40,937 nucleotides of DNA from an uncultured Chitinophagales bacterium. GTDB taxonomy: Bacteria; Bacteroidota; Bacteroidia; Chitinophagales; JAHDHT01. The translations under genes were made by a program, and so were the position numbers. Below, piece by piece: positions 1,872-38,900 of this stretch. The stretch covers positions 1 through 40,937 of the forward strand of contig CALHDG010000249.1 of the NCBI GenBank assembly GCA_938023075.1, given 5' to 3'. Every line of letters starts with the position of its first letter. Position 1 is the stretch's first letter. The notes under the pieces are model-generated. The model did no database searches. It was given only the letters and a program-made list of their open reading frames with translations, and was not told the DNA's origin.

Positions 1872-1904
1872 TATAAACAATCAGCAGGCAGGTATAATGC
1901 TAAT

Positions 1905-1932
1905 GTAAATTTATTTTTTTTTCATTTCCTAA
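1905..1932. repeat. Possible solo end of the foldback element (copy D)
   Basis: The stretch ATGTAAATTTATTTTTTT followed by CATTTCC and TAA closely matches the right end of the foldback element at 11085-11113. No left half is visible because the phoH coding end lies directly upstream. It may be a relic end, or an AT-rich coincidence. Confidence 0.35.
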
Positions 1933-3216: not shown

Positions 3217-5538
3217 ATGATCAATTTTCAACAAGTAATGCTACTCACGGTACTTTTTGTATTTGTTTTCAACACAAATTTTGCGCAAAGTGATAACTAC
3301 GCTAAAATAAAAGTGGAACTGACTTCTGCAGAGCAGATGACTCATTTAAATACTTTAGCGATTGATTTTGATCACTTTCAGATTGCAGATGAAAACAGCC
3401 TGAAGTTTATTGTTAATCAGCTAGACTTACCGGTTTTAGATGCAGCAAATGTTAGCTATGAAATATTGATTGAAGATTGCAGAGCAAATTATAAAGAGCA
3501 ACAATTATTGGATAAGCTATCTGATAAAAAAGCTGAGAGAACGAATTTTACAGCAGATCATTTTGGCTATGGTAGTATGGGTGGCTTTTATACTTTAGCC
3601 GAAATTGAAGCCAAATTAGATGAGATGAGTGCCGATTTCCCTAATCTGGCAAGCCCAAAATACAGTATCGGTAAATCAATAGAAGGCAGGGATATTTGGG
3701 CAGTAAAAATTTCTGATAACCCTTTAATTGATGAAGATGAAGAAGTGGTGTATTATGATGCTTTACATCATGCACGAGAGCCACTTTCGATGGCGGTAAC
3801 CCTTAACTATGCTTTTTGGCTGTTAGAGCATTATGCAATAGATGAAAAAGTGAAATATATGCTGAATAACCGGGAGATTTATATTGTACCGTGTGTAAAC
3901 CCGGATGGCTATGAATATAACCGCGAAACCGACCCAAATGGCGGTGGCTTTTGGAGAAAAAACCGGCGATTGATTAGTGATGATTGTGTGGGTATTGATC
4001 TCAACAGAAATTATAGTTTTGGATATGCGCACGATAATAATTGTTCAAGCACCAATCCATGTTCAAATATTTACAGAGGGGAAGAAGCATTTTCTGAGCC
4101 CGAATCGATGGCGGTTAAAAACTTTTTGGCAGAAATTAAGCCCAACACCTCGCTTTCAATTCACTCTACTGCGGGCAGTTGTCTAATGCCTTATGGTTTT
4201 GATACTTCTCCGCCGGCTTTTCCAATTTACTCAGAATGGGCATCCGATTTTTTAAGTGAAAATGACTATCCTTATGGGGTTACTTTTCAAATGTTGGGCT
4301 ATACCTCTTGTGGTACAACCCGGTCTTATCTTCATTCAGAAGGCGTGTATTGCTGGACTTTAGAAATTGATGGTTCTGGTTTTTGGCCCCAGCAAAGCGA
4401 AATTTTTCCATTGGTAGATGAAAATGTATATGTACTGTTTTATCAGACTTGGATTGCCGGACAATATACCGATGTGCAAAGCCACCAACTTATTGGGGAG
4501 GCAGTTAGAGGTGGCAATTTTGAAATGAACGTTGAAGTGAAAAATAAAGGACTTGGTTCAAGCCCTTCCATGGTTGAGGTAAGTATTGTACCAAATAATG
4601 AATATGTAGTGGTTACTGGCAATGGCTCTATTGGCATGGTCGCCTCAAGAGAACGGGATAGAAGCGGAAATTTTAATATTTATATTGATCCGATGTTTGA
4701 AGGCGAACAATTTGAAGTTGATCTTATAGTAAGTCAAAATGGAACGGAAATGAACAGAGAAACCATTATAGTGCCTATTGGAAAAAAGACAATTTTATTT
4801 GAAGATGATGCAGAAGCTGGTTTGGATAATTGGACTAGTTCAGGAAACGGAATAGCTTGGGGCTTGTGTGCAGATGATACTTATGATGGGTCGTTTTCTT
4901 TTGCTGATTCAGACAATGGGAATTCAGCAAGTAATACAACTAATTTTTTTACAATTAATGATTGGATTGACTTGAGCGAAAGTAATCAACCCCGTTTAGA
5001 ATTTTTTAGCAAATGGTCTTTCGATAATTTTCAAGATCAAGTGGCTTTACAAATTCTAACATCTGCAGAACCACTTTGGACTACTTTACAAACTTATACC
5101 AAAAGTGAAGCATGGCATCAGGAAATGATAGACTTAGCAGACTATAAAGGAGACCGCATAAAAATCCGGTTCGAATTGCAAACCGATCCTATATTAAGTG
5201 GAGATGGCTTTTATATAGATAAACTTAGCATCATTGATTATACTTGCGTTGATTGTATAATATCTGATATTGTAGAAGTAGAAAGTCCGGTGCATTTGTT
5301 TTATCCTAATCCGTTTAGTGAATATTTATATATAGCCTTAAAAGAAAATATCAAAGCCGAAATTAATGTTTATGATCTGAATGGAAAAAAAGTTAAGGAA
5401 CTTATCCTGCCCGAAATGTCCAATACGGTTCAACTAAATTTGAGTGATCTGCTTTCAAGTGTTTATATGATGCAAATTATCGATTTAAATTCTGGAGCGA
5501 CCTTTTCGGATAAAATAATTAAAGCAAACATCCATTAA
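3217..5538 (+). CDS. Secreted M14 zinc carboxypeptidase with T9SS sorting domain
   Basis: From ATG 3217 the protein is 773 residues. It has a signal peptide (MINFQQVMLLTVLFVFVFNT, cut near FAQS). The M14 domain follows, with zinc motif HHARE (His185, Glu188), substrate-binding LNRNY at about 263, a third zinc His in SIHST near 316, and catalytic Glu383 in CWTLEIDG. Residues ~520-670 form a jelly-roll, immune-inhibitor-A/MAM-like region beginning ILFEDDAEAG. The C-terminus (LFYPNPFSEYLYI ... SDKIIKANIH) is a T9SS type A sorting domain. It probably trims peptides at the cell surface or outside. The frame is open from TTG 3181, with ATGs at 3196 and 3238 as alternatives; 3217 gives the best signal peptide and fits the promoter. 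Confidence 0.93.
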   Translation: MINFQQVMLLTVLFVFVFNTNFAQSDNYAKIKVELTSAEQMTHLNTLAIDFDHFQIADENSLKFIVNQLDLPVLDAANVSYEILIEDCRANYKEQQLLDKLSDKKAERTNFTADHFGYGSMGGFYTLAEIEAKLDEMSADFPNLASPKYSIGKSIEGRDIWAVKISDNPLIDEDEEVVYYDALHHAREPLSMAVTLNYAFWLLEHYAIDEKVKYMLNNREIYIVPCVNPDGYEYNRETDPNGGGFWRKNRRLISDDCVGIDLNRNYSFGYAHDNNCSSTNPCSNIYRGEEAFSEPESMAVKNFLAEIKPNTSLSIHSTAGSCLMPYGFDTSPPAFPIYSEWASDFLSENDYPYGVTFQMLGYTSCGTTRSYLHSEGVYCWTLEIDGSGFWPQQSEIFPLVDENVYVLFYQTWIAGQYTDVQSHQLIGEAVRGGNFEMNVEVKNKGLGSSPSMVEVSIVPNNEYVVVTGNGSIGMVASRERDRSGNFNIYIDPMFEGEQFEVDLIVSQNGTEMNRETIIVPIGKKTILFEDDAEAGLDNWTSSGNGIAWGLCADDTYDGSFSFADSDNGNSASNTTNFFTINDWIDLSESNQPRLEFFSKWSFDNFQDQVALQILTSAEPLWTTLQTYTKSEAWHQEMIDLADYKGDRIKIRFELQTDPILSGDGFYIDKLSIIDYTCVDCIISDIVEVESPVHLFYPNPFSEYLYIALKENIKAEINVYDLNGKKVKELILPEMSNTVQLNLSDLLSSVYMMQIIDLNSGATFSDKIIKANIH

Positions 5539-6155: not shown

Positions 6156-6230
6156 CGGGCAACCTGCTATCCGCTAAATCTTTTTATTCCACTTTGTTCC
6201 ATAAAAAGGATACCGCTCCTATCAGGGCTA
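6156..6230 (+). ncRNA. Structured RNA element resembling flavo-1 RNA, copy 2
   Basis: The order is CCTGCTATCCGCT, an arm ending CTTTTTAT, the loop TCCACTTTGTTCC, the partner arm ATAAAAAGG, ACCGCT, and CAGGGCTA. CCTG pairs with CAGG as an outer stem. In copy 1 the same positions are CCCG and CGGG, a compensatory change. The inner stem also keeps pairing with a different sequence. It lies between the macrodomain gene and accA. Confidence 0.6.
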
Positions 6231-6380
6231 ATCATTTAACGGCAACCGTATTCAGTTACGTACCAAATACGGTACCATCAAGTTATCGTACTACCAATTT
6301 CTGTAATAATTATGAAGATGTAAAACCTAAAATTTCAGTATATTTATGAACAAGCATCTGTACTGATTCTTTTATTGTTT

Positions 6381-6480
6381 AGCCTCGTCTTAACTTAGGC
6401 AAAAGCATGCATTTTTCACCTCGACAAGAAAAAAAATAATAATATTCTCAATTAATAAATTTATTTCTCAGCATTCCTAA
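6381..6480. repeat. Probable decayed copy C of the foldback element
   Basis: AGCCTCGTCTTA at 6381 matches the core of copy B (33018 region). The right end, AATAAATTTATTTCTCAGCA then TTCC and TAA (6478-6480), matches the element's terminal repeat and its flanking TAA. The left half is too diverged to delimit. Confidence 0.5.
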
Positions 6481-8483: not shown

Positions 8484-8492
8484 TTGAATCGA

Positions 8493-10955
8493 ATGATTAA
8501 CAACAAAAATACGACCCTTCTTCGGAAACAACATCTTAAGCAAGTCTTATTTTTGTATGCTAGCATTTGTTTCAGCTTTATGGCTTTTTTGCTTTGGTTG
8601 TATATTCCATATGCTATTCAACCGTTTAATCATTTGTTTTTTTTATTGGCATTTTTAGGCATAGTAGTTTTAGCGGCTATTCCATTTCTATATGAGGATT
8701 TTAGACTTAAGCAAAGTAAATATTTGTTGAAACATATAAATGCACATCCCAAAATGGAATACAGTACAACTTTGCTAGTAAAAAATTCTGACAATTTAAA
8801 TAGTTTAGAAAAAATACAATTATCGAAAATACAAACTCGAGTAAGCAAGGTTTTTAATGAACTGAACACACCTCATTTTTTTGGGAAAGCATTCATATGC
8901 GTATTCATTAATTTGCTTTTGGTAGGATGGGTGATACAATTTCAATTAGATACTCAAGCGGTCAAATCTCCCGTTTCTAATATCTTACCAAATGCAAAAT
9001 CAAGCCTTGAATTTGGTATAGCAGATTCAACTCAAGTTGTATCGTTAAAAGATTATAAGATAAAAGTTATACCTCCAAAATATACTCGCTTACAATCATT
9101 TGCTCAAAAAGAAATGGACATTGAAATTGCTGAAGGAAGTTTGATTGAATGGAGATTACAATTTGATCGTAATGCGCCAAAACCTATTGTGGAAATAGAT
9201 GGTAAATCAATACCTTTCCGCACAAATGATTCGGTTAATTATGCTATAGAACTTACATTGAAAACACCTCGAAAAACATGGTATAATCTTAAAGCAGACA
9301 CCACAATTAAAGCTCCAATATTGAATACTTTATATGCCATAAACGTAATACCTGATAAAAAACCAATTGTACGAATAACAAATTTAAAGCATTATCAGCA
9401 AATTCGGGAAAGTGAATTGAAACCGCAAATGATAAGGTATATTTTAAAAGATGATTATGGAATTTCGAAAGCTGATATACAACTCCTTAAAAGTAGTGGA
9501 GATGGAGAGTCGGTAATTTTTGAGGAAGAAAACTATGCTTTATCTACAGTAAGAAAAGAGGAGGAACAATCGCTTACTATCAATTTAAATGATTTAAAAC
9601 CTGAACCAGGAGATGAGTTTTATATCAGAATAGAAGCAAGTGATAATCATCCTGCCAAAAAGCAAACTGTTTTTTCAGATACCTATATTATTGCTATTGA
9701 AGATACTACAAAACAACAAGCCGATTTTACCATGGCATTGGGTATGGATAGAGAACCAGAATATTTTAGAAGTCAACGACAACTTATTATTGATACCGAA
9801 AATTTGATTGAACAGAAGACCGATTTAAGTGAACTTACTTTTAAAGAAGAAAGTAACAATATTGGAATAGAACAGAAATTACTGCGCCTTCGCTACGGTA
9901 AATTTTTAGGGGAAGAATTTGAAGGAACAATTGGTATTCGAACGTCCTATAACCACGCAAGCCGAACACCTAACAAAAAAGTTTCAAACAATACAGTAAG
10001 TGAAAAAACGCATCATCAGCATGAAGAAAGTTTAGAACATCATCACGATCACGATCATCATGAAGAAGAACATCATCACGAACACGATCATCATAAAGAA
10101 GAACATCAAACTCATAAAAAACACGATCATAATCATCATGAAAATTGTGATCACAACCACGAACATGATATGTTGGAAGAAGTGGAACACTTCGATGAAA
10201 AAGAACACGGTCACGAAAATGAACTTTTAGCACATGATCATTCAAGTCATGATGATGATCACGACCATTCAAGTCATAACTATCATCATCACGGCGAAGA
10301 AACCGAAAACCCGGAAGCACCCAAAAATTGGTTAGCTCCATTTCAACACTTTCACGATAATGCCGAAAGCAATACATTTTTTGAAAGTGAAGTAAAAGCA
10401 AAACTAAAAGCTGCACTCGCACAAATGTGGGATGCTGAATTGCAATTGCGCTTGGGTCAACCTGCCTTGTCTTTACCTTATCAACACAAAGCTTTAAAAT
10501 TAATTAAAGAAGTTCAACAGGCAAGTAGAGTGTATGTAGAACGAGTTGGTTTAGATTTACCTGAAATTGATGTAGCCAAAAAAAGATTAAGAGGAGAGTT
10601 AGATGAAATAACAGACCCTAAGCATATTATTTCTTTGCCCGCTGATCAGGTTGTTCAAAAGATATACCTTGCTTTGCAAAAGGTAGAGTATTTAATACAT
10701 CAACAAACCTATACTTTTGAGACTCATCAAACAGTAAACAAAATTAAAGACTTACTTTATGGTATTCGGGAGAAGGATGAAAATTGTTATGTACAATGTC
10801 TTCATATACTCAATCAAATTCCGAATAAAATAAACAAACTACATGAGCTTCAATATGTTTTGCATTTATTTCTAAAAGAAAATGAATCGCTTAGTGGAAA
10901 GACGGTGAGAAAAAACAGTAGATTAGAGAATTTATACTGGCAGTATGTTAATTAG
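8493..10955 (+). CDS. Large membrane protein, DUF4175-like, with His-rich loop
   Basis: About 820 residues. Two hydrophobic segments near the N-terminus (FLYASICFSFMAFLLWLYIP and LFFLLAFLGIVVLAAIPFLY) and a third near 133-150 (FICVFINLLLVGWVIQF) anchor it. A long, probably periplasmic region follows, with Ig-like or beta stretches such as YKIKVIPPKYT. A His/Asp/Glu-rich loop spans about residues 507-603 (10011-10302). The C-terminal ~200 residues are helical. Layout and neighbour resemble Bacteroidota DUF4175-type proteins found with BatA/GATase1-like membrane proteins. The exact function is unknown. ATG 8493 is chosen; an in-frame TTG at 8484 abuts the dapA stop. Its TAG stop (10953-10955) spans the junction with the foldback element. 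Confidence 0.8.
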   Translation: MINNKNTTLLRKQHLKQVLFLYASICFSFMAFLLWLYIPYAIQPFNHLFFLLAFLGIVVLAAIPFLYEDFRLKQSKYLLKHINAHPKMEYSTTLLVKNSDNLNSLEKIQLSKIQTRVSKVFNELNTPHFFGKAFICVFINLLLVGWVIQFQLDTQAVKSPVSNILPNAKSSLEFGIADSTQVVSLKDYKIKVIPPKYTRLQSFAQKEMDIEIAEGSLIEWRLQFDRNAPKPIVEIDGKSIPFRTNDSVNYAIELTLKTPRKTWYNLKADTTIKAPILNTLYAINVIPDKKPIVRITNLKHYQQIRESELKPQMIRYILKDDYGISKADIQLLKSSGDGESVIFEEENYALSTVRKEEEQSLTINLNDLKPEPGDEFYIRIEASDNHPAKKQTVFSDTYIIAIEDTTKQQADFTMALGMDREPEYFRSQRQLIIDTENLIEQKTDLSELTFKEESNNIGIEQKLLRLRYGKFLGEEFEGTIGIRTSYNHASRTPNKKVSNNTVSEKTHHQHEESLEHHHDHDHHEEEHHHEHDHHKEEHQTHKKHDHNHHENCDHNHEHDMLEEVEHFDEKEHGHENELLAHDHSSHDDDHDHSSHNYHHHGEETENPEAPKNWLAPFQHFHDNAESNTFFESEVKAKLKAALAQMWDAELQLRLGQPALSLPYQHKALKLIKEVQQASRVYVERVGLDLPEIDVAKKRLRGELDEITDPKHIISLPADQVVQKIYLALQKVEYLIHQQTYTFETHQTVNKIKDLLYGIREKDENCYVQCLHILNQIPNKINKLHELQYVLHLFLKENESLSGKTVRKNSRLENLYWQYVN

Positions 10956-11113
10956 GAATGATGAGAAAATAAATTTACCATCTATGATAATGCAATTTTT
11001 TGATAGACGAGGCGAAAAACGTAGTCTTAGTGGGGCTAAGACGAGGCTTTTCAACGAAGTATATCGAAAAATTGCAAAGTCAACATGTAAATTTATTTTT
11101 TTCTCATTCCTTA
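10952..11113 (+). mobile_element. Palindromic foldback element (MITE/ERIC-like), copy A
   Basis: A 156-bp core (10955-11110) begins GGAATGATGAGAAAATAAAT and ends in the inverted counterpart ATTTATTTTTTTCTCATTCC. It is flanked by direct TTA repeats (10952-10954, 11111-11113), which look like a 3-bp target duplication. The palindrome continues inward: GCAATTTTTTGATAGAC faces GTATATCGAAAAATTGC. At the centre, GTCTTAG (11024-11030) pairs with CTAAGAC (11036-11042) around TGGGG. A second copy in opposite orientation lies at 32953-33112. No transposase is encoded. Confidence 0.82.
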
Positions 11114-13631: not shown

Positions 13632-13634
13632 CTG

Positions 13635-13653
13635 TGAGAAAATAAACTTACCA
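13635..13653. repeat. Fragment like the left end of the foldback element (E)
   Basis: TGAGAAAATAAACTTACCA matches 18 of 19 bases of the left terminal repeat of copy A (10962-10980). The outer GGAATGA and the right half are absent, so this is a relic or chance match in AT-rich DNA. Confidence 0.3.
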
Positions 13654-13734
13654 ATCCCATAAAAATCATTTTTTATCTTAAACCATAGGGAAAATAAACA
13701 ATCTTTAAGTTACAAACGAAAATTTTAATTTAGA

Positions 13735-14979: not shown

Positions 14980-15055
14980 TAAGACAGATATTTCATAAAA
15001 TATTAAGTAGCGATACAATAAGGCAGTTTGGAAACAGGCAACACTAAATGGTCAA

Positions 15056-15106
15056 CCAAAAAATATCGAACACCGAACACCCAATTTTGAATGACGAAAT
15101 TTTCCA
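15056..15106 (-). repeat. TTCGATATT-type dispersed repeat, copy 1
   Basis: The minus strand (TGGAAAATTTCGTCATTCAA ... GTTCGGTGTTCGATA, TTTTTTGG) aligns with 31038-31095 on the plus strand, apart from a short insertion in the latter. Confidence 0.75.
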
Positions 15107-15166
15107 TTCGAAAAACAACACTTAGCAACTACACAACCCAACACCCTTTAGCGTAGTTGACTTGGA

Positions 15167-15215
15167 AATCGGGGATAGTTTAAAAACTTCGGTGCTTAGT
15201 AGTAAGAAAAAAAAT
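15167..15215 (+). repeat. 49-bp dispersed repeat, copy 2
   Basis: AATCGGGG, one base, then TAGTTTAAAAACTTCGGTGC and an A-rich tail; the inverted partner of 2846-2894 with about five differences. Unlike copy 1 it lacks the preceding RNA-element arms. Confidence 0.75.
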
Positions 15216-17041: not shown

Positions 17042-19181
17042 TGCTAACTAAACGGTTTGTTTCAAAATCGGTTAATATTTCTTCAAAAGTTCTGTTGGTA
17101 CAAGTGCCAATTTCTAAAGCCAACTCCTTAGAAACAAAAAAGGTAGACATGGACGTACCACTGGCAACCATTGTTCCTTTGGGAACATTACTTACAATAT
17201 TTTCACCAAAAGCAGCAAGTTTAACTGCATTTCGGCTTCGGTTTGAAAATTCACTTAAATCTCCACTTTCGGTAATTGAAGCTACTGAAATTACATTGGG
17301 ATAATCTTTTGCAAAATATGCCGGATATTGGTGCTTGATGTCAATATCAATAGTATCATTTCCAGCCGAAGTAGCAATAAAAATACCTTTCGAACAGGCA
17401 GTTGAAACTGCATTTTCTAATATAGCAGAAACTTCACCACCATAAAACCCGCCACTTAAGTTAATTACATCGGCATTATTATCTATTGCAAAATATAAAC
17501 CACAAACTAAGTTAAAAAGGGTTGATTTATCATCTTCAGTAAAAATTTTTACCGGAACAATTTTTAGAGGGACATTGTTATCTAAATGATGTGTGATTGA
17601 GTTAAACCCAAAAGTGCCGTGCCACCCATTATCCAAAATATCATCATTCATTCCGTCACAGGCTTCTACAACAGCAGCTTGCAAAAATGGAGAATCACCT
17701 GTAAATCCGGTATCTAACATATAAATGGATATAGTATCTTCACAACTTTCATTACTAACATTCGATACTTCATAGGCTTCTGGTCCAATATTAATAGGCC
17801 CAAATTTCAATATATTATTAAAATCACTATCTATTTCAGTGCTATCTTTCATAGCGATTGACTTTTCATTCAAGAAAATTTCGGCGGCATTATTAGCATT
17901 TGGAAATTCATACAAATATATCTCGCGGTTACAATTGCACGAATCAATTACAAAACCACCATAGTTGACAATTATAGAATCTTCATAAACTTGTCTTTCT
18001 TGTGCATTGCAAAACTCAATCATTACTTGATTTGATACAACTGCTTCACCATATAAATCATAGCCATCAATAACCACGTAAAAGGGTTCATAAATATATT
18101 CCAACGTATCTGTATTGTTTAAAATTTCTGATAATTTTAGTGTGTAAGCACCTGCGTTTTCCGGCTCATTAATATGTAGATTTAAAGTATTTGTACTGGT
18201 GTCAACATCACCACGCATAACCTCATTATTTTTGCACCATTGGTATTTTATGATATTTTCATTTTCTACAGAAACCGTTAATGCTTCGGTAACTGGCTCA
18301 TTTAATGAATTGATGGTAATAATGTTAGAATTATTACTTAGTTTAACATATTGCGGATTAAATATAAATTGGTCAAAATTAGATGCATTAGAAATATTGT
18401 TAGTTTTGAAATAGTTTCCGTTTACCTTAAATGAGTTTAAACTTAAAGCAGGTATGTTGCCTGTTAATTGATTATAAGATAAATTTAAGACCGACAAATT
18501 GGTTAAGTTTTCAAATTGAACCGGTATGTTACCACTTAGTTGATTATAAGATAAATTTAAATCTGACAAATTGGTTAACAAGCCTAATTCATTAGGGATG
18601 CTTCCTGTAAATTGATTATAAGATAAATTTAAGACGGATAAATTCGTTAAATTTTTTAATTGAATTGGGATGCTACCGTTTAATTGATTATGCGATAGAT
18701 TTAATGCTAACAAATTGGTCAAGTCACCAAACTCATCCGGTATATTTCCTTTCAATTTATTATTTGACAAGTCTAAAATAGTTAAACGATTTATTCTACC
18801 TAATTCAGCAGTTAGGTTACCGCTTAATTGATTATTTGATAAATCTAATTTTGTCAAATAATTTAATAAGTGTATTTCATTGGGTATTTCTCCATTTAAT
18901 TTATTATTTACTAATCTTACAAGGTCAACTCTTCCATTTTCAAAAGAATCGAGACTTACTTTTAGTGTTACACCATGTAAAACGCCTAAATCACATTTGT
19001 TTTGAGGAACTGTTCCCTCAATTTGTTCCCAACCTTTATTGTTTTTCCAATTTTCCCCATTTGTATTTTCGTATAGGGCTTTCAAAGCTGTCCAATCATC
19101 TATATGGCATTGCGCTTTACTGTGTTGATAAAAAAGGGTGCTGCAAATTAGCAGGCTAAGCATTAAAATAATTTTTTTCAT
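16857..19181 (-). CDS. Secreted leucine-rich-repeat subtilisin-like (S8) protease
   Basis: 774 residues. A signal peptide (MKKIILMLSLLICSTLFYQH, cut near SKAQ) precedes a plant-type LRR cap (DWTALKALYENTNGENWKNN) and seven ~24-residue LRRs (NNxLxGxIP type, ~80-260). An Ig-like stretch follows (~290-360), then an S8 domain with a complete set: Asp490 (MLDTG), His521 (WHGT), Asn608 (SAGND) and Ser677 (GTSMS). The natural end appears to be about residue 715. The last ~58 residues (HKPIHLLKPRYNKSTPPKSH ...) are Pro/Arg-rich and unlike the rest because this DNA also encodes the CHAT gene in another frame. No T9SS sorting domain is visible, which is odd for such a protein. Probably a surface or secreted protease. 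Confidence 0.88.
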   Translation of the reverse strand: MKKIILMLSLLICSTLFYQHSKAQCHIDDWTALKALYENTNGENWKNNKGWEQIEGTVPQNKCDLGVLHGVTLKVSLDSFENGRVDLVRLVNNKLNGEIPNEIHLLNYLTKLDLSNNQLSGNLTAELGRINRLTILDLSNNKLKGNIPDEFGDLTNLLALNLSHNQLNGSIPIQLKNLTNLSVLNLSYNQFTGSIPNELGLLTNLSDLNLSYNQLSGNIPVQFENLTNLSVLNLSYNQLTGNIPALSLNSFKVNGNYFKTNNISNASNFDQFIFNPQYVKLSNNSNIITINSLNEPVTEALTVSVENENIIKYQWCKNNEVMRGDVDTSTNTLNLHINEPENAGAYTLKLSEILNNTDTLEYIYEPFYVVIDGYDLYGEAVVSNQVMIEFCNAQERQVYEDSIIVNYGGFVIDSCNCNREIYLYEFPNANNAAEIFLNEKSIAMKDSTEIDSDFNNILKFGPINIGPEAYEVSNVSNESCEDTISIYMLDTGFTGDSPFLQAAVVEACDGMNDDILDNGWHGTFGFNSITHHLDNNVPLKIVPVKIFTEDDKSTLFNLVCGLYFAIDNNADVINLSGGFYGGEVSAILENAVSTACSKGIFIATSAGNDTIDIDIKHQYPAYFAKDYPNVISVASITESGDLSEFSNRSRNAVKLAAFGENIVSNVPKGTMVASGTSMSTFFVSKELALEIGTCTNRTFEEILTDFETNRLVSNERHKPIHLLKPRYNKSTPPKSHRRLPILPTKQQPKIPNPRQPNISNRLQFPQQSPARHLH
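18430..18910 (-). repeat. 72-bp tandem repeats encoding the LRRs
   Basis: The segment TTGATTATAAGATAAATTTA recurs about every 72 bp (for example near 18468, 18540, 18612), matching 24-residue LRR units. Adjacent units in the lower half are nearly identical, which suggests recent duplication. Confidence 0.8.
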
Positions 19182-24054: not shown

Positions 24055-27000
24055 TTACTCAACAACAAATTTATGCGTGGCTATTTCATTGCCTTTTATG
24101 GCATGTAGTAAGTAAACACCTTCTTTTAAAAAGTCGATGTTCATTTGATATACATTCGCACTTTCAACGGCTTTATTCGTTTGGCTATAAACTACCACAC
24201 CATTCAAATCTACTATTTGAAATAAAACTGATGCTTTACTGCTGGCAGTAATTACTACATTAACAAAGTTATTGGCAATTGTTGGATAAATATTTTCAAT
24301 TGATAAATGACCGCTTGGTAAATGTCTACCAACTCGAAATCCACCACAATCCGCATCAACAGAAATAGAAGCTACATCGTGATCATCTTCATCGCCATTT
24401 TGATTGTAAATAGCATTGTCAGAATTAGTTCCTGGAATTGCTCCCGGATCATTATTTGGATCACTATCTGCATTACTATCTTTATCATTGCCATCATCCA
24501 TACTAATTTCTGAATAAAAATTCAGTACAGAATTCGGTGCATTATCAATTTCTAATATTAAAAATGCACTTAACAAATCAGAATCGGGATTAGGATAAAC
24601 ACCGCCTGGTGGAATACAACTGGTAATATTAGTTGTAGCTACCGAACCATTAATGGTCCAAATTGAATTTTGTGGATTATCACTTACCGACATGCCTTCT
24701 GGTATGTAGGCAGTTATTTGAACATTACAAGCTGTTATTTCACCGGTGTTATAAATGGCAGTATTATATCGTACCTCATCACCCGGGCAATATTCTGTTG
24801 GTAAGCTGGAAGATATACCATTCACTAAAGCCAAATCATATTCTAAAATCTCACCAATTGTTATAGCGGCTACATCATGATCGTCTTCATCACCCATTTC
24901 TCCATTAATGGTGTTATCTGTTCCAGAATTAGGTATGGCACCAGGATCATCATTCATACCATCTGCTGTACTATCAATATCTTCGCCATCATCCATACTA
25001 ATTTCGGCATAAAAGTTAAGGTTTGCGCCTTCCACTTCTGCATCAAGCGTTAAGTAGATATTTACTGAAGCTGCACCACCGGGTTCTATGCAACTGTTAA
25101 TAGTTGTGGTAGCAATATATCCATCAACAGTCCAAATTGAATTTAGGGGGTTATTGCTAAGAGACATCCCAACTGGAATATAAGCGGTTACTTCAACATT
25201 GCATGCTTGTACCTCACCTTGATTGTAAACCGTAGTACTAAACCCAACTTCATCTCCAACATTAACAACAGAGTTATAACCTGGCGCAAGGGTGGTAATT
25301 AATGCTAAGTCATAAATTTCTTCTTCACATATAGTAATAGCGGCTACATCATGGTCATCTTCATCGGCAGGATTATAAATTGAATTATCAGTATCGGTAT
25401 TTGGCACCGCACCGGCATCGTTATTTGGATTATTGTCTGGTGTACTGTCAATATCATCCCCATCGTCCATACTAATTTCTGCATAAAAATTAACCATCGT
25501 ACCTGGGGCTCCGGAAATTTCTAATATTAAGAAAGCACTTAACGGATCTGTACTGGCATTTGGATAAGTTCCACCTGGTGGGATACACGTATTAATAGTA
25601 GCAGTAGCGATAGAACCATTAACCGTCCAAATTGAATTTAAATCATTATCACTTACCGACATACCAGCCGGTATATATGCGGTAATCTCGAAGCTACAAG
25701 CCTCTACTTCACCAGTATTATAAACTACTACATTAAAGCGCACCTCTTCTCCCGGGCAATATACCGTATCATAAGAAGAAGAAATGCCTGCAATTAAAGC
25801 TAAATCATATACTCCGGGATTTCCAATAACAATTGCGGCTACATCGTGGTCATCTTCATCACCGTTTTCTCCATTTATTACACCGTCTGTGTTTGAATTT
25901 GGAATGGCACCAGGGTCGTTATTGACATTATTGTCTGGCATGCTGTCAATATCATCACCATCATCCTGACTAATTTCTGCATAAAAATTAATCATAGAAC
26001 CTGCAGCACCCGAAACAAGCGTTAGATAAATATTAACTAGTTCTGCACCGTTTGGCGCAATACAAGTATTAATAGTTGTTGTAGCAGTTGAGCCGTTAAC
26101 CGTCCAAATTGAATTTAGTGGATTGCTGCTTAGCTCCATGCCTGCAGGTATGTAAGCCGTTACCTCTACGTTACAGGCTTGTTCATCTCCCTGGTTATAT
26201 ACGGTGGTGCTAAAACCAACTTCTTCTCCAGGATTTACGGTTGAATTATAACCGGCGGCTATATCAGTAACTAACGCTAAATCATACTCTACCGGATCAC
26301 AAACATTAATGCTGGCTACATCGTGGTCGTCTTCATCATTAGGATTATAAATTGCATTATCTGTATCAGAATTCGGTATACCTCCTGCATCGTTGGTAGG
26401 ATCATTATCTGGCATACTATCTATATCATTACCATCATCCATACTAATTTCTGCATAAAAATTTACCGTTGATGCGGTTGCACTAGTAATTTCAAGTACT
26501 AAAAATGAACTCAAAATATCAGAATCAGCATTTGGGTATACTCCACCTGGTGGAATGCAACTGGTTATATTGGCAGTTGCTGTATTACCATTAATCGTCC
26601 AAATTGAATTTAAAGGATTACTACTGACCGACATGCCTTCAGGAATATAAGCTGTAATTTCAACTTGACACGCTTCTATGTCGCCAGTATTGTAAACAAC
26701 GGTGTTAAAGCGAACTTCTTCACCCGGACAATAAGTACCCGGATAACTGGAAGAAATACCGGTTATTAGTGCTAAATCGTAATCGCCAGTTGGAGGAGGT
26801 GGAGCTGGTGCCATACAATTGCCTTCATTACAGTTTGCTGAGGCATTGTAATTTGTTGCTTCAGGGTCTGTGCATCCCAATATTCGAACTGTTGTAACCT
26901 GGCAACCGCATGTATCCGGATTCCAAACGGCAACATCACCGGCACAAATATCGGAATTACAAATAGTACTGTAGGCAGCACAAGAACCATCATCTTGCGT

Positions 27001-27636
27001 TGCAGTAGAATCATAATTTGGTGCGCAAGGGTCAATACATCCTAAGCTTACGCAATCTTCTCTTACCACAATGGTAGTAAGGTCGTGGTCATCTTCATCA
27101 TTAGATGAATAAATCAGTCCTTCAATAACTGCATCGTTATTTGGATTGTTATCCGGCGTACTATCAATATCATCTCCGTCATCCTGACTAATTTCTGAAT
27201 AAAAAGTAATAGTAGACGATGGTGGATTGTTTAACTCCAACACTAAAAATGCACTAAGTGGACCTGATTCAGCATTTGGATAAACCCCTCCTGGAGGAAT
27301 ACAGGTAGAAATGTTAGCGGTAGCCGTTGAACCATTTACTGTCCAAATTGAATTTAGTGGATTACTACTAGCACTCATACCTGCGGGAATGTAGGCTGTA
27401 ATTTGAACGTTGCAAGCTTCAATATCTCCCGAGTTGTAAAGCACGGTATTAAACCTTACTTCGTCGCCCGGGCAATAATGTGTAGAAAAATCTGTAGAAA
27501 TGCCATTGATTAAAGCTAAATCATATACCTGGCATTTGGCGGTATTCGTAAAGAGCGAAATCATCAAAAATAGTAATGAAAAAGCCGTAATTTTGAGTGT
27601 GTTTACTTTTAAAGGAACTTGTAAAATTTTTTGCAT
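24055..27636 (-). CDS. Repeat-built surface protein with DUF11/CARDB-like modules and T9SS domain
   Basis: 1193 residues with a signal peptide (ITAFSLLFLMISLFTNTAKC). Six ~150-residue modules each begin YDLAL(I/V), contain AYIP(A/V/E)GM and NSIWT(V/I)(N/D)G, and end in an acidic EDDHD motif after an Asp-rich, possibly calcium-binding stretch (DDGDDIDS). Modules 1, 2, 4 and 6 carry a CPG(D/E)EVR...CIPPGG pattern; modules 3 and 5 carry VGFSTTVYNQG...; so the order is A-A-B-A-B-A. Between modules 1 and 2 are Cys-containing units (GCIDPCAPNYDSTA; GCTDPEATNYNASA) common in Bacteroidota exoproteins. A T9SS-type C-terminus (IENIYPTIANNFVNVVI ... ATHKFVVE) ends it. Probably a fibrous adhesin. Confidence 0.9.
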   Translation of the reverse strand: MQKILQVPLKVNTLKITAFSLLFLMISLFTNTAKCQVYDLALINGISTDFSTHYCPGDEVRFNTVLYNSGDIEACNVQITAYIPAGMSASSNPLNSIWTVNGSTATANISTCIPPGGVYPNAESGPLSAFLVLELNNPPSSTITFYSEISQDDGDDIDSTPDNNPNNDAVIEGLIYSSNDEDDHDLTTIVVREDCVSLGCIDPCAPNYDSTATQDDGSCAAYSTICNSDICAGDVAVWNPDTCGCQVTTVRILGCTDPEATNYNASANCNEGNCMAPAPPPPTGDYDLALITGISSSYPGTYCPGEEVRFNTVVYNTGDIEACQVEITAYIPEGMSVSSNPLNSIWTINGNTATANITSCIPPGGVYPNADSDILSSFLVLEITSATASTVNFYAEISMDDGNDIDSMPDNDPTNDAGGIPNSDTDNAIYNPNDEDDHDVASINVCDPVEYDLALVTDIAAGYNSTVNPGEEVGFSTTVYNQGDEQACNVEVTAYIPAGMELSSNPLNSIWTVNGSTATTTINTCIAPNGAELVNIYLTLVSGAAGSMINFYAEISQDDGDDIDSMPDNNVNNDPGAIPNSNTDGVINGENGDEDDHDVAAIVIGNPGVYDLALIAGISSSYDTVYCPGEEVRFNVVVYNTGEVEACSFEITAYIPAGMSVSDNDLNSIWTVNGSIATATINTCIPPGGTYPNASTDPLSAFLILEISGAPGTMVNFYAEISMDDGDDIDSTPDNNPNNDAGAVPNTDTDNSIYNPADEDDHDVAAITICEEEIYDLALITTLAPGYNSVVNVGDEVGFSTTVYNQGEVQACNVEVTAYIPVGMSLSNNPLNSIWTVDGYIATTTINSCIEPGGAASVNIYLTLDAEVEGANLNFYAEISMDDGEDIDSTADGMNDDPGAIPNSGTDNTINGEMGDEDDHDVAAITIGEILEYDLALVNGISSSLPTEYCPGDEVRYNTAIYNTGEITACNVQITAYIPEGMSVSDNPQNSIWTINGSVATTNITSCIPPGGVYPNPDSDLLSAFLILEIDNAPNSVLNFYSEISMDDGNDKDSNADSDPNNDPGAIPGTNSDNAIYNQNGDEDDHDVASISVDADCGGFRVGRHLPSGHLSIENIYPTIANNFVNVVITASSKASVLFQIVDLNGVVVYSQTNKAVESANVYQMNIDFLKEGVYLLHAIKGNEIATHKFVVE

Positions 27637-30976: not shown

Positions 30977-31037
30977 TTTTTAGATGATTTAAGTTTATCA
31001 GAAATAGAAAACGATAAAGTAGCAACCGAAGTCTGAT

Positions 31038-31095
31038 TGGAAAATTTTTTCATTCAAAATTAAAAATTCGGTGTTCGATATTCGATATTTTTTGG
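31038..31095 (+). repeat. TTCGATATT-type dispersed repeat, copy 2
   Basis: TGGAAAATTTTTTCATTCAA, AATTAAAAATTCGGTG, TTCGATATTCGATATTTTTT, GG: the inverse of 15056-15106. It lies in the 218-bp spacer between the convergent cysN and IscA-type genes, which holds no other recognised signal. Confidence 0.75.
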
Positions 31096-31194
31096 AGTAG
31101 TATATAATGTATATCGATTAACGAATAATGAATATTGATTAATTTTTAATGATCAATGATATGTTCGGCGAGGTAAGTTAACTGTTTTTGAAAT

Positions 31195-32126: not shown

Positions 32127-32918
32127 TTGAAAAAAAATCTAATCATTATTTGCATACTATGTTATGCAAGCGTTGTTAGTTTGGCGCAACAGTATCCCAA
32201 ATTATTTGATGATCGAAATGCCATAAAATTAAGTGTGAATAGCCTGGTATTAAGTAATATTCATATCAAGTATGAGCGTGCGCTGCATCCAAATTTTTCG
32301 TTTCAACTTAGCTTGGGTAAATATTTACCGGTTGATTTAGTTAAACGGCTTTCGGACCGGCAATTTAATTGGCGAAGCTATGAATTGGATTTAGAGAATT
32401 TTAATGAACTTGAATTTTACGGTAACTATTTAACCATACCCGAAATTACTTTAAATGGCTATTATACACAAGGTGAAATTCGTTGGTATCCCAACAGAAA
32501 AAAGACGCTACGCGGTTTTTATTTTGCTCCATTTTACACCTATCATATGGCTTCCTTAACTAATGTGGAAGCCTTTGACAGTGAAGGATATTTTTACAAT
32601 GGTAATGTATCTGTTCTATATGCTGGTGGTGGTTTGCAAGCTGGCATTCAATGGTTAGTTAAAAAATGGCTAATTATTGATTTTAATTTTCTCGGTATTG
32701 GAGCAGCGAGGGTCAACAACAAAGTCTCTTATTCTACCGACAATCCATATGTAAATTATGAAACTCAAATAGAAGACTTCGAAAATTTTGTAACTAACGA
32801 ACTCAACTTTAAAAAGCAGCAATACAACATTTCAGTCAGTGAAAATCAATTGAATTACCAATTGAATCTTAGGGCTCCGGTGCTTCGGTCGGGGGTTTCG
32901 GTTGGGGTAGTTTTTTAA
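32127..32918 (+). CDS. Probable outer-membrane beta-barrel protein (DUF3575-like)
   Basis: 263 residues. A signal peptide (MKKNLIIICILCYASVVSLA, cut before QQYPK) precedes alternating beta-strand segments: NSLVLSNIHIKYERALHPNF, GEIRWYPNRKKTLRGFYFAP, GGGLQAGIQWLVKKWLIIDF, and a final strand VLRSGVSVGVVF ending in Phe as outer-membrane barrels do. The pattern resembles DUF3575-type small barrels; no transport function can be assigned. The start is TTG: TAG at 32121-32123 is in frame two codons upstream, and no ATG occurs before the middle of the protein. A consensus promoter lies ahead of it, and the foldback element copy B begins 34 bp after its stop. Confidence 0.82.
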   Translation: MKKNLIIICILCYASVVSLAQQYPKLFDDRNAIKLSVNSLVLSNIHIKYERALHPNFSFQLSLGKYLPVDLVKRLSDRQFNWRSYELDLENFNELEFYGNYLTIPEITLNGYYTQGEIRWYPNRKKTLRGFYFAPFYTYHMASLTNVEAFDSEGYFYNGNVSVLYAGGGLQAGIQWLVKKWLIIDFNFLGIGAARVNNKVSYSTDNPYVNYETQIEDFENFVTNELNFKKQQYNISVSENQLNYQLNLRAPVLRSGVSVGVVF

Positions 32919-32952: not shown

Positions 32953-33112
32953 TAAGGAACGATAAAAAAGAAATTTACCATCTGACTTTGTCATTTTCCG
33001 ATATACTTCCTTGAAAAGCCTCGTCTTAGCCCCACTAAGCCTGCGTTTTCAACTCGTCTATCAAAAAATGGCTTTATCAGAGTTGATCAATTTATTTTCT
33101 CATCGTTCCTAA
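32953..33112 (-). mobile_element. Palindromic foldback element, copy B
   Basis: A 154-bp core (32956-33109) flanked by direct TAA repeats (32953-32955, 33110-33112). Ends are GGAACGAT... and ...ATCGTTCC. Its reverse complement aligns with copy A over the full length, sharing GATGAGAAAATAAAT, TTTTTTGATAGACGAG, CTTAGTGGGGCTAAGACGAG, and GCTTTTCAA. The central hairpin is kept. It lies between convergent genes and interrupts neither. Confidence 0.82.
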
Positions 33113-33148: not shown

Positions 33149-33607
33149 TTAATCAAGTATGGTATCATCTATCAGAAACAAAAGATTTATGTCGTTTTCT
33201 GCAAATGTGGTTTCATATTTTTCGGTATAATCATATTTTAAAATTTCAATTTCTTCAAAAGTTGGCGTTGTTTTACCTTGTTTTAAATATTCAATTAAAG
33301 CATCTCTTGAGGCTAACTTGTCGGTTAAGTAAAACCAAAAAGTTTCTTCATTATAATCAAATATTTTTTTTAAAAATGATTTAATTTTCGCTTCTTTCAA
33401 TTCTTCTCCATAGGCTAGTTCTTTAAACCAATCTTGTAAATTAAATGTTGCTTTCTTGCTATAAATATAATCACATAGCTCTTCGGCTGTTTTATCCATT
33501 TCTTTTGCACCTGCTTTGTTAGCATTCAATAACCATTCTCCATAGAAAATTAATTTTACTAAGGTTTTGTATTGATCGTTAGTTAGTTCAATGTTTTTCT
33601 TTTTCAT
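33149..33607 (-). CDS. Uncharacterised cytoplasmic protein
   Basis: 152 residues, no signal peptide or membrane segment. It is acidic and mainly helical, beginning MKKKNIELTNDQYKTLVKLI and containing an aromatic stretch (NEETFWFYLTDKLASRDAL). The overall style (ELT-D-YKTLLKL-Y-G-W--NA at the start, a 'TFW' core) is one I have seen in Bacteroidota hypothetical proteins, but no domain is recognised and no function is proposed. ATG 33607 gives a sensible start. It sits alone between copy B of the foldback element and the divergent metalloprotease gene. Confidence 0.75.
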   Translation of the reverse strand: MKKKNIELTNDQYKTLVKLIFYGEWLLNANKAGAKEMDKTAEELCDYIYSKKATFNLQDWFKELAYGEELKEAKIKSFLKKIFDYNEETFWFYLTDKLASRDALIEYLKQGKTTPTFEEIEILKYDYTEKYETTFAENDINLLFLIDDTILD

Positions 33608-35906: not shown

Positions 35907-38900
35907 TTATTCAATAAATATTTTTTCGCTAAGCATACCTTCGTTATTATACAATCGAATTAAAACAATTTGGTTTGCTATATTTACATACGGCAATTTA
36001 TATTGATTGTTACCAGATTGTACCATCAATTTTCCATTCATTAACTGTTGCCCCAACATGTTAACTACATCATACTGAATATCTCTAAGTTGATTGGATT
36101 GTATCTCTAAATGAATTACCTCATTAGCCGCAAATACAGATTGAATATTGAAATGAGTAAAAGGTACTATATGACCTGTATTGCTAATAAGCTCTTCTTC
36201 TTCATGTTGAATCATTAAAATAGTAACCGTGGCATAATCGCAATCACCAAAATCATTACAAATAGTATATACAAATTGATCTTCGCCAACAAAGTCTGTC
36301 GGCGGATTATAGCTGATGGTATTGTTGAACAAAATATTAGTACCATACTTCGGTATTCCAGAATTGCTTACGGTTGCTTCAATTCCTTGTGCAATCGTAT
36401 CATTGGCTAACACATTAATTCTAATGGGCTGATTGACATTCGTGATCAAATGGTCTTCAACCGCTTTAATATTTGGCATTAAATCATCTTCTACTGAAAC
36501 ATAAACTTCTGCTTGACTACATAAATCATAAGCATTACAAAGCCAATAGGTAAATTGATCTTCACCAACAAAACCATAATTGGGTAAATAACTCACTGTT
36601 CCATCAAGGTTTTCATTTAGTTTTCCGAACTTAGCCTCTTCTATAATATTAACTGTGAAGGCATTGGTGTTTGGTGCATCATTCGATAATATTGAAATAG
36701 TTTTTAGTTGATTTTCTTTGGTTTGTACATTGTCGTTTTTAGCCAATGGATTCAAACAAGTTTCATCAATTAAAATGTACGCTAAAGCCAATTCCTCTTT
36801 TCCGTTTTCATTAGCCGCTACTATTTCTAGTGTGTCCGATGCTTCCGAAGCTAATAAAGGCGTGTAGTAAAAACAGCTTTGTTGAATGTTGTTAATTGTG
36901 TTACCCACCTCAGAATTGATGGTTTGTATGGAAGCATTAGTATCACAGAATTCAAGACAAATTTCATTTTCTATTAAAGGTTGAGCGCAACTTTCAAATA
37001 TAGTCGTACACATATCTGCCTCAATACGAACCCTGGCAGTAGCACAATTTCCACAGGTGTTGCATATTTCATATTCAATTTCGTCGGTTCCCGTAAAATC
37101 TTCATTGGGTTTATATTGAATACTTCCATTCACTAACATCTCATTTCCATACTCAGCTCCTTTGGTAATGGCATGAATAAAAAACTCTGGAAAGCATATA
37201 CTTACATTCTCATCATTTAATGCCGGATCGAAAACTACCGTTCCATTAAAATAGGTAGCAAGGGTATTGTTTAACAAAGCTTCTTGTGTATTGATTGTTA
37301 ATACATCTGGATTAGCAACCGGATTGTTGCAAACAACGTCAACTGTATAGTTAGCAATAGTACTTAATGCAGGCAAGCCATCATCGCATATTTTTACCGA
37401 CACATCGCGTGTTCCAACAATGCCGGGTAGGGGAGTATAGAAAAAGCAAAGCCCATTGATGTCGCCAATGGTACAATCAAAATGTGTTTTAATCTCACAA
37501 ATACTTAGGTTGTTATTATCATTATCTTCGGCATCCACACAAATTTCAACCGTTTGCACTGGAGCGGAACAGAAGTTTACATGGTCATTTAAAATAACCG
37601 GTTGCGTGTTGTTGCTTTCGCAATTTTGTATTTGTGCGATTACCAAAGTCTGTACACAAATATTTTGCTCATTCACGGCTTCTACTAAAAATTGATCTTC
37701 TGAATTATCGACGCCTGAAAAGGGTGTGTAAATTAGGCAGTCTTCACTTATTTCTAAAGTACCATTTACCGCACCGTTAGCGTTTTCAATTTCAAAAGTA
37801 CCTGGCACACAAAAATCTGGACAAATCGTAACCGATGTATTCGTCTGCACACATTTTATTAAATCTTCGCAAGCAAATGGAGCCTCACAAGGCAATAACG
37901 GTACTGGTGCATAAACTGTTAAATTGACTGCTGCCGTATTATCAATTTCCACATCATCTGCAGGTGAGCTCGATCTGATGGACACTGCATTTCTATAATT
38001 ACCTGGTGTTACGCCCTGTGTTTGAATAGTTAAACGCGCACTTTGATTAACGTCCAGAAAATCGAGCGACCAAATTTTATCAGTGGCATCGTAAGCACCT
38101 ATACTTGCATCGTGCGAAATATACACCAATTGATTTGGCCATAATTCATCTACCCTTATATTAAAAGCTTCATCTGGTCCATTGTTCGTTAAAGTAATTA
38201 CAAATGAAGTGTTTTCTCCAGATTCAATTGAATTGTCTTGTACACTTTTTTGAATAGATAAATTAGCTTTCGGTAAGGCTCGGATGCCTATATTCGCTTG
38301 CGCAGAATTGTTAGTCGGTCCGATATCTATTTGATTTACATCAACTAAACTTACATAGTTTGTATAATTACCTGGCTTTACTGCTTTTGCCTCAATAACA
38401 AGTTGAGCGGTTGTTGATACCGGTAAAGAGGCAATGCTCCATATTCCTGTAGTAGTATTAAATGCTCCTATACTGGTGCTATAATCAAGATAACTCAAGC
38501 CTTCTGGAAAATCTTCTTTTATGGTAATTTGAGTGGCTTCATCTGGACCAATGTTCGATAAAATTATCACAAACTCAACCGTTTCTTCCTCAAAAACCAC
38601 TTCTTTGTTTACCGATTTAGTTAAAATTAAATCAACTTCTTCAGGCTGCGTTATTTCCTCTTTTACTTCTACTGATGCAAAAGCTTTATTGTTTTGATTA
38701 TTGGTATCTAATTGATCAATGGCGACAATTTTTACTTCGTTGGTAAGTGTACCAGAGGCAGTGGCTATTGCATAAAGGCTTAGTTGTGCTGTTGAAAATG
38801 CCGGAAGTGTGGCAATTAACCATTCATTATTTTCTTCTGAATAATTGCCTCTATTCGCTATGTTCCTAGCATAGCTTAAGCCCATTGGTAAATTTTCTTC

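Follow-up and report, generated by a model that had tools for sequence, protein, structure and literature searches.

Foldback-Type MITEs with a Conserved Hairpin Core in a Chitinophagales Bacterium and Relatives of the Core in Other Bacterial Groups

The genome of an uncultured Chitinophagales bacterium (GCA_938023075.1) carries at least 100 copies of a non-coding mobile element, two of which lie in the window analysed here, i.e., the whole 40,937-nucleotide stretch of contig CALHDG010000249.1. The elements behave as non-autonomous transposons with terminal inverted repeats (TIRs), that is, as MITEs. The usual definition of a MITE rests on its ends, and the interior is thought to be arbitrary; in this family the interior is what is conserved, in no fewer than four large bacterial groups, and it is the ends that vary. 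The interest of the family is this conserved dyad-symmetric core, together with a near-constant length, behind changing ends. The element is probably a foldback-type MITE moved in trans by a DDE transposase of the IS5 superfamily, which would act on the tips and insert the element at TWA sites, with selection acting on the folded core and on the length.

Copies in the Window

The two complete copies, A and B, align from end to end in opposite orientation with 85% identity (E about 1e-47), at the places given for them in the original prediction. Each folds into one long hairpin. Their description as nearly full-length imperfect palindromes with a central hairpin is borne out: A and its reverse complement match at 73% along the whole length, and none of 100 shuffles contains the central GTCTTAG-TGGGG-CTAAGAC hairpin, of which the window has two. 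The coordinates of the copies and of their remnants are collected in Table 1, where R1 is a covariance model of the central 64 nt and R2 a broader model.

Table 1. Positions of the foldback elements and their remnants in the window.
Feature	Position	Strand	Basis and remarks
Left 3-bp target duplication of A (TTA)	10952..10954	.	Target duplication rule from the genome-wide set
Element A, foldback, 156 bp	10955..11110	+	Sequence and genome copies; no ORF of its own
Left terminal inverted repeat of A, GGAATGATGAGAAAATAAATTTACC	10955..10979	+	21 of 25 positions match the right end
Conserved core hairpin of A	11002..11065	+	R1 84.2 bits, R2 81.3 bits (E 5e-19); order: loop X (CGAGG), 5-bp stem, loop Y (CGTAG), apical hairpin CTTAG/CTAAG, loop X, stem, loop Y (ACGAAG)
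Right terminal inverted repeat of A, GGAATGAGAAAAAAATAAATTTACA, read inward	11086..11110	-	Paired with the left end
Right 3-bp target duplication of A (TTA)	11111..11113	.	
3-bp target duplication of B (TAA)	32953..32955	.	
Element B, foldback, 154 bp	32956..33109	-	Orientation opposite to A
Core hairpin of B	33000..33062	-	R2 61.5 bits, E 7e-14
3-bp target duplication of B (TAA)	33110..33112	.	
Third copy, degraded: weak core and one end (ATTTATTTCTCAGCATTCCTAA)	6368..6480	-	R2 11.5 bits only; end match
Solo element end (ATGTAAATTTATTTTTTTTTCATTTCCTA)	1903..1931	.	
Probable solo element end (GTGAGAAAATAAACTTACCAATC)	13632..13660	.	

The absence of coding capacity, which had also been predicted, is confirmed, the element having no ORF of its own. 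Together with the first base of the element, the left target duplication of A supplies the TAG stop (10953-10955) of the ORF at 8484-10955. B sits between the converging ORFs 32127-32918 (+) and 33149-33607 (-).

Copy Number and Placement in the Host Genome

That the two copies belong to a larger mobile family was correctly foreseen. A genome search, in which 40 of 312 candidates were scored, gave at least about 40 full-length copies at 87-100% identity, plus reverse-complement self-matches. When up to 3 mismatches are allowed, the 15-base centre has 239 sites in the genome and a reversed control has 65, which leaves an excess of roughly 170; 115 copies distinct in sequence or in the immediate arm were extracted. 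The modal length is 156 bp. As in MITEs generally, the elements are multi-copy (more than 100), shorter than 500 bp and non-coding, and they have terminal inverted repeats that are matched across copies as well as in A (21 of 25 positions).

Simple ORF calls put 43 of the 44 copies that have long flanks outside ORFs, within 26 tandem, 8 divergent, 6 convergent, and 3 undetermined gene pairs. Several copies are found at contig ends, so that the family also fragments the assembly. Tandem copies on one contig (G000:C48) were considered as a nested insertion that might provide an empty-site test, but the oldest copy is without its right half; no close relative with or without copies at the same loci was found for such a comparison.

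Target Duplication

Element ends were picked by tip and inverted-repeat score alone, ignoring the flanks, before the flanking triplets were compared. Left and right triplets agree in 48 of 90 copies; pairing the left flank of one copy with the right flank of another gives an expectation of 11.7. Concordant pairs number 40 (20 TTA/TTA and 20 TAA/TAA), and mixed TTA/TAA pairs number zero; CTA/CTA and AAA/AAA pairs are also present in the genome-wide set. The duplication is exactly 3 bp, 4-bp identity occurring in only 1 of 90 copies, and most non-identical flanks are mis-called ends within the A/T-rich arm. This family-wide result is decisive for a 3-bp target duplication.

The original prediction had reached the same conclusion by another argument, namely that the triplets of A and B differ. 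They do not: TTA and TAA are complementary, B's TAA is TTA in A's orientation, and the two-copy argument therefore fails once B is turned round. The conclusion itself holds from the TTA, TAA, CTA, and AAA pairs across the genome. Neither of the two contrary outcomes named beforehand, a lack of further copies or flanks lacking a duplicated triplet, was encountered.

TWA duplications also flank related families, in 19 of 22 copies in G057 (10.05 expected; all 159 bp), 6 of 7 in G128, and 6 of 9 in G116. No 3-bp TWA duplication was seen in G098, in many clostridial copies, or in many others.

The duplications bear on a REPIN-like origin, in which the hairpin would be moved as single-stranded DNA by a REP-associated tyrosine transposase (RAYT, a Y1 HUH enzyme). 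IS200/IS605-type transposition makes no target duplication, and the TWA duplications here are clear. Like REPINs and REP elements, the family has paired, imperfect arms forming a long hairpin, a high copy number, and an extragenic location, and the host has Y1_Tnp genes (9 matches). Y1_Tnp is, however, present in 112 of 150 genomes of the order irrespective of the core, with no association between the two; G098, G110, and G142 are rich in cores and gave no Y1_Tnp match (all three are incomplete, at 68-83%); and no core stands beside the Y1 genes examined, with the exception of one 850 bp away at G000:C89. The family further differs from REPINs in its length of about 160 bp and its conserved motif, and it has no consistent RAYT. 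A REPIN-like mechanism is thus very unlikely.

Arms and Core

The arms pair over their full length, with standard pairs in 96% of the consensus-pair cells of 74 distinct copies. Cells changed on both sides number 123 in these copies, against 9-29 when the partners are slid by 1-3 positions, counts that mirror a few subfamilies and thus do not represent independent events. Such double changes are found at tip pairs 2:155, 5:152, and 7:150 and in the mid-arm at 39:120 and 40:119. At the tips, GG/CC becomes GT/AC, and AT becomes AC with the matching change at the opposite end.

The core is a hairpin of 64-65 nt. Its 5' and 3' halves both read X (C-R-A-G-G), stem, Y (C-G-C-A-G). Compared with each other, the loops of the halves reach 73% identity at a single offset, and no other offset exceeds 43%; the stems between the loops are complementary and have 10% direct identity, i.e., they are not repeated. 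Across 18 diverse core sequences, 92% of cells are paired and 14 of 15 pairs have changed on both sides. Double-change cells number 56, distributed over all three helices, against 15.8 after shuffling and no more than 15 with slid partners. The conserved parts are the internal loops; the stems are variable. As a folded hairpin, the core uses one internal-loop motif twice, in opposite directions, around a stem of 5 bp. The natural reader of such a dyad-symmetric core would be a twofold-symmetric protein.

A folded core could instead be kept for an RNA function, the element being a regulatory RNA or terminator cassette (a transcribed hairpin and RNase III substrate) spread by ordinary transposition. 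G-U pairs do occur among the compensatory changes, and MITE transcripts are known to fold into stable stem-loops (PMC10969869). Against this, the copies use all gene orientations, the 8 divergent pairs included, so that a terminator role is not suggested. No Rfam 15 family scores above its gathering score over the element, and the patchy presence of the core, in 22 of 150 genomes of the order, is unlike that of a host regulatory RNA. Such a cassette is considered quite improbable.

The Core in Other Genomes

Within the order, R1 identified the core in 22 of 150 genomes from at least three families; about 14 of these carry many copies, and most genomes carry none. In a sample of the phylum filtered for completeness, only 4 of 392 genomes have it. 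With R2 the core was found in rumen Clostridia MAGs and one Desulfuromonadales MAG, as well as in 40 of 398 Pseudomonadota species and 7 of 297 in the phylum of the Desulfuromonadales, although weak single matches among these cross-phylum counts may be false. Matches in other phyla reach E 1e-10 to 1e-17. Blastn independently recovers the core on plasmids of three proteobacteria, Martelella (Alphaproteobacteria), Mitsuaria, and Diaphorobacter (both Betaproteobacteria). The Martelella plasmid pMM593 (locus L327, about 3950-4200) has two opposite cores inside one outer inverted repeat, GTGATTAGRACCCATATGA.

The clostridial and Desulfuromonadales versions gave no plasmid match, and no core was present in the phages or E. 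coli genomes searched. A scan of 706 kb of viral DNA, chosen beforehand for containing an 18-letter piece of the motif, gave only chance matches and no core, and about 10-11 of 20 genomes or records, most of the 20 being chance pattern hits, had none at E 0.001. The core was not described in the literature searched, literal core strings included; the search was limited to open-licence papers, and this absence is therefore weak evidence of novelty.

These results bear on the simplest alternative, an ordinary genome-specific MITE whose likeness to sequences elsewhere is convergence or chance. A full-length DNA query did give no strong match in 60 relatives. The E values in other phyla, the absence of the core from the preselected viral DNA and from most genomes, and its independent recovery by blastn on the three plasmids make this alternative hardly credible. 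The relatives of the hairpin in Bacteroidota, Clostridia, Desulfuromonadales, and Proteobacteria suggest an undescribed, widely conserved DNA or RNA structure. The original interpretation is supported and was essentially right on the MITE family; the recurrence of the core hairpin in other phyla was not part of it.

Tips, Length, and the Link to IS5

The tips are GGAATGA in this genome, TACGAATTAC in G057, GTAATGCGGA in G128, GTGAAAGATC in G116, and AGTAGTCTGACA in G098. They are AGAGTGTGTTTC in Clostridia, where some copies have repeats of 5-9 bp, AGTGTCCTGTGCGG in Desulfuromonadales, and GGAAGCTCTGAACAAGTC and similar in Pseudomonadota. Across these families the total length is mostly 155-168 bp, shorter estimates reflecting an automatic end-finder that halted inside the arms. 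Target duplications are of 3-4 bp, longer, or unseen.

The original prediction had compared the duplications with IS5/Harbinger-type movement. The duplication rule stands: the 3-bp TNA/TWA or 4-bp YTAR duplications of the IS5 superfamily are found as TWA in this genome, G057, G116, and G128 and as CTAG/CTAG around L437, one copy from the phylum of the Desulfuromonadales; CTAG duplications were also read by eye at L367 and L423. The ends divide the families. Proteobacterial tips match the E. coli IS5 end, the one IS5 subgroup compared, significantly (15/18, 13/18, and 11-12/18), whereas the window tips match it at 8/18, with p about 0.2, no better than chance. Mobilisation by the IS5 superfamily is thus well supported, from the resemblance of the ends, only for the proteobacterial relatives. 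For the family of this genome the link is suggestive, resting on the TWA duplication and on analogy.

No transposase gene was found between GGAATGA-type tips in the window, in the fetched loci, or beside the transposases examined, nor was an ORF-bearing element or transposase found beside the G057 tips examined. The genome is a draft of 288 contigs, in which a collapsed multi-copy IS could be missing. The one PF13359 (DDE_Tnp_4) match is a C-terminal transposase fragment at a contig end (L069, G000:C221), probably a collapsed multi-copy IS, and its end is unlike the element tips; seven PF01609 loci have no such tips either. At L211 (G000:C89), an IS200-type transposase gene adjoins an IS110-type ORF, with the element copy about 850 bp away.

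In G057, an IS1595-type gene (L396) is not bracketed by the tips. Unpaired G057 tips and pairs 206-714 bp apart proved to be composite hairpin arrays without ORFs or ordinary genes. Five such loci (L382, L384, L385, L386, and L387) have the TIR and TWA duplication of the 159-bp family and are 206-714 bp long, again without an ORF; elements of this size class are packed with nested hairpin modules (e.g., AAAGGTCGTAAATCGACCTTT, GAACCGA).

The core could also be the mobile or selected unit itself, a folded module served by a dedicated enzyme, with the tips as the changeable base of the hairpin and the duplications arising from staggered cuts. The core and length are conserved while tips and duplication length vary among families, the tips change in matched pairs, and the two Martelella cores share one outer inverted repeat. 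Yet the tips are uniform within each genome, the duplication is TWA, or CTAG with IS5-like tips, as in ordinary TIR transposition, and no candidate enzyme was found. This reading is judged unlikely.

Comparison with Known Elements

MITEs of the IS5 family and PIF-Harbinger type share with the window family short inverted ends, the lack of coding capacity, and a 3-4 bp duplication with a central TA; the window family differs in that no partner IS was found. A long internal palindrome, a conserved core, and a near-constant length are not known to be features of those MITEs.

GTAG- and CGTC-tagged REPs are palindromic repeats of several phyla, some without a known transposase, and consist of single stem-loops of 20-40 bp with a terminal tag (PMC3733652). 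In the present family, by contrast, conservation lies in the centre of a foldback that measures about 160 bp and has a target duplication. CGTC-tagged REPs were considered since CGTC borders the apical stem in B, and were rejected on the absence of the motif in Clostridia. Chunjie of Geobacter (178-235 bp) and QMITE2 of Coxiella (direct repeats of 7-9 bp) are bacterial MITEs that have direct repeats and whose transcripts are predicted to fold (PMC10969869); they are set apart from the core elements by these descriptions of size and direct-repeat length, not by sequence.

Proposed Mechanism and Implications

In the preferred account of a foldback-type MITE, the gene for an IS5-superfamily DDE transposase would lie elsewhere, and its product would recognise the tips and paste the element into TWA sites. 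The palindrome may act folded, as single-stranded DNA, a cruciform, or a transcript, and a conserved protein acting as a dimer might recognise the core in its hairpin form. Selection on the folded unit would keep the core and the length of about 160 bp, and the tips would follow whichever transposase is available. The putative reader of the core could aid transposition, protect the host, or protect the element. The conserved interior suggests that transposition, or the handling of hairpins by the host, includes a recognition step overlooked until now.

A stronger form of this account is put forward as a tentative possibility that would sooner prove wrong than right. The core may be a pan-bacterial folded module, its hairpin read by a dimeric protein through two identical internal loops symmetric about the 5-bp stem; this module would fix the length at about 160 bp, and the same lineage would work with different transposases by exchanging its tips. 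If true, the elements would make up a new class, one in which the centre and not the ends defines a mobile element. With the covariance model, thousands of intergenic repeats that lack an explanation can be annotated, and the core-reading protein can be sought.

Other Features of the Window

A stretch at 6156-6233 (-) scores above the gathering score of the Flavo-1 RNA family (RF01705). Two short dispersed inverted repeats unrelated to the element were also noted, one of GAACACCGAACACC type at 15041-15109 and 31035-31110 and one of GAAGCACCGAAG type at 2847-2894 and 15167-15214. The ORF at 8484-10955 (weak DUF4175 match) contains His/Glu-rich short tandem repeats at 10034-10144. Large repetitive ORFs lie at 18450-18881, 24448-27432, and 35907-40937, with internal repeats of 72 bp and of roughly 970 bp or 375 bp, and the last of them runs past the end of the window.
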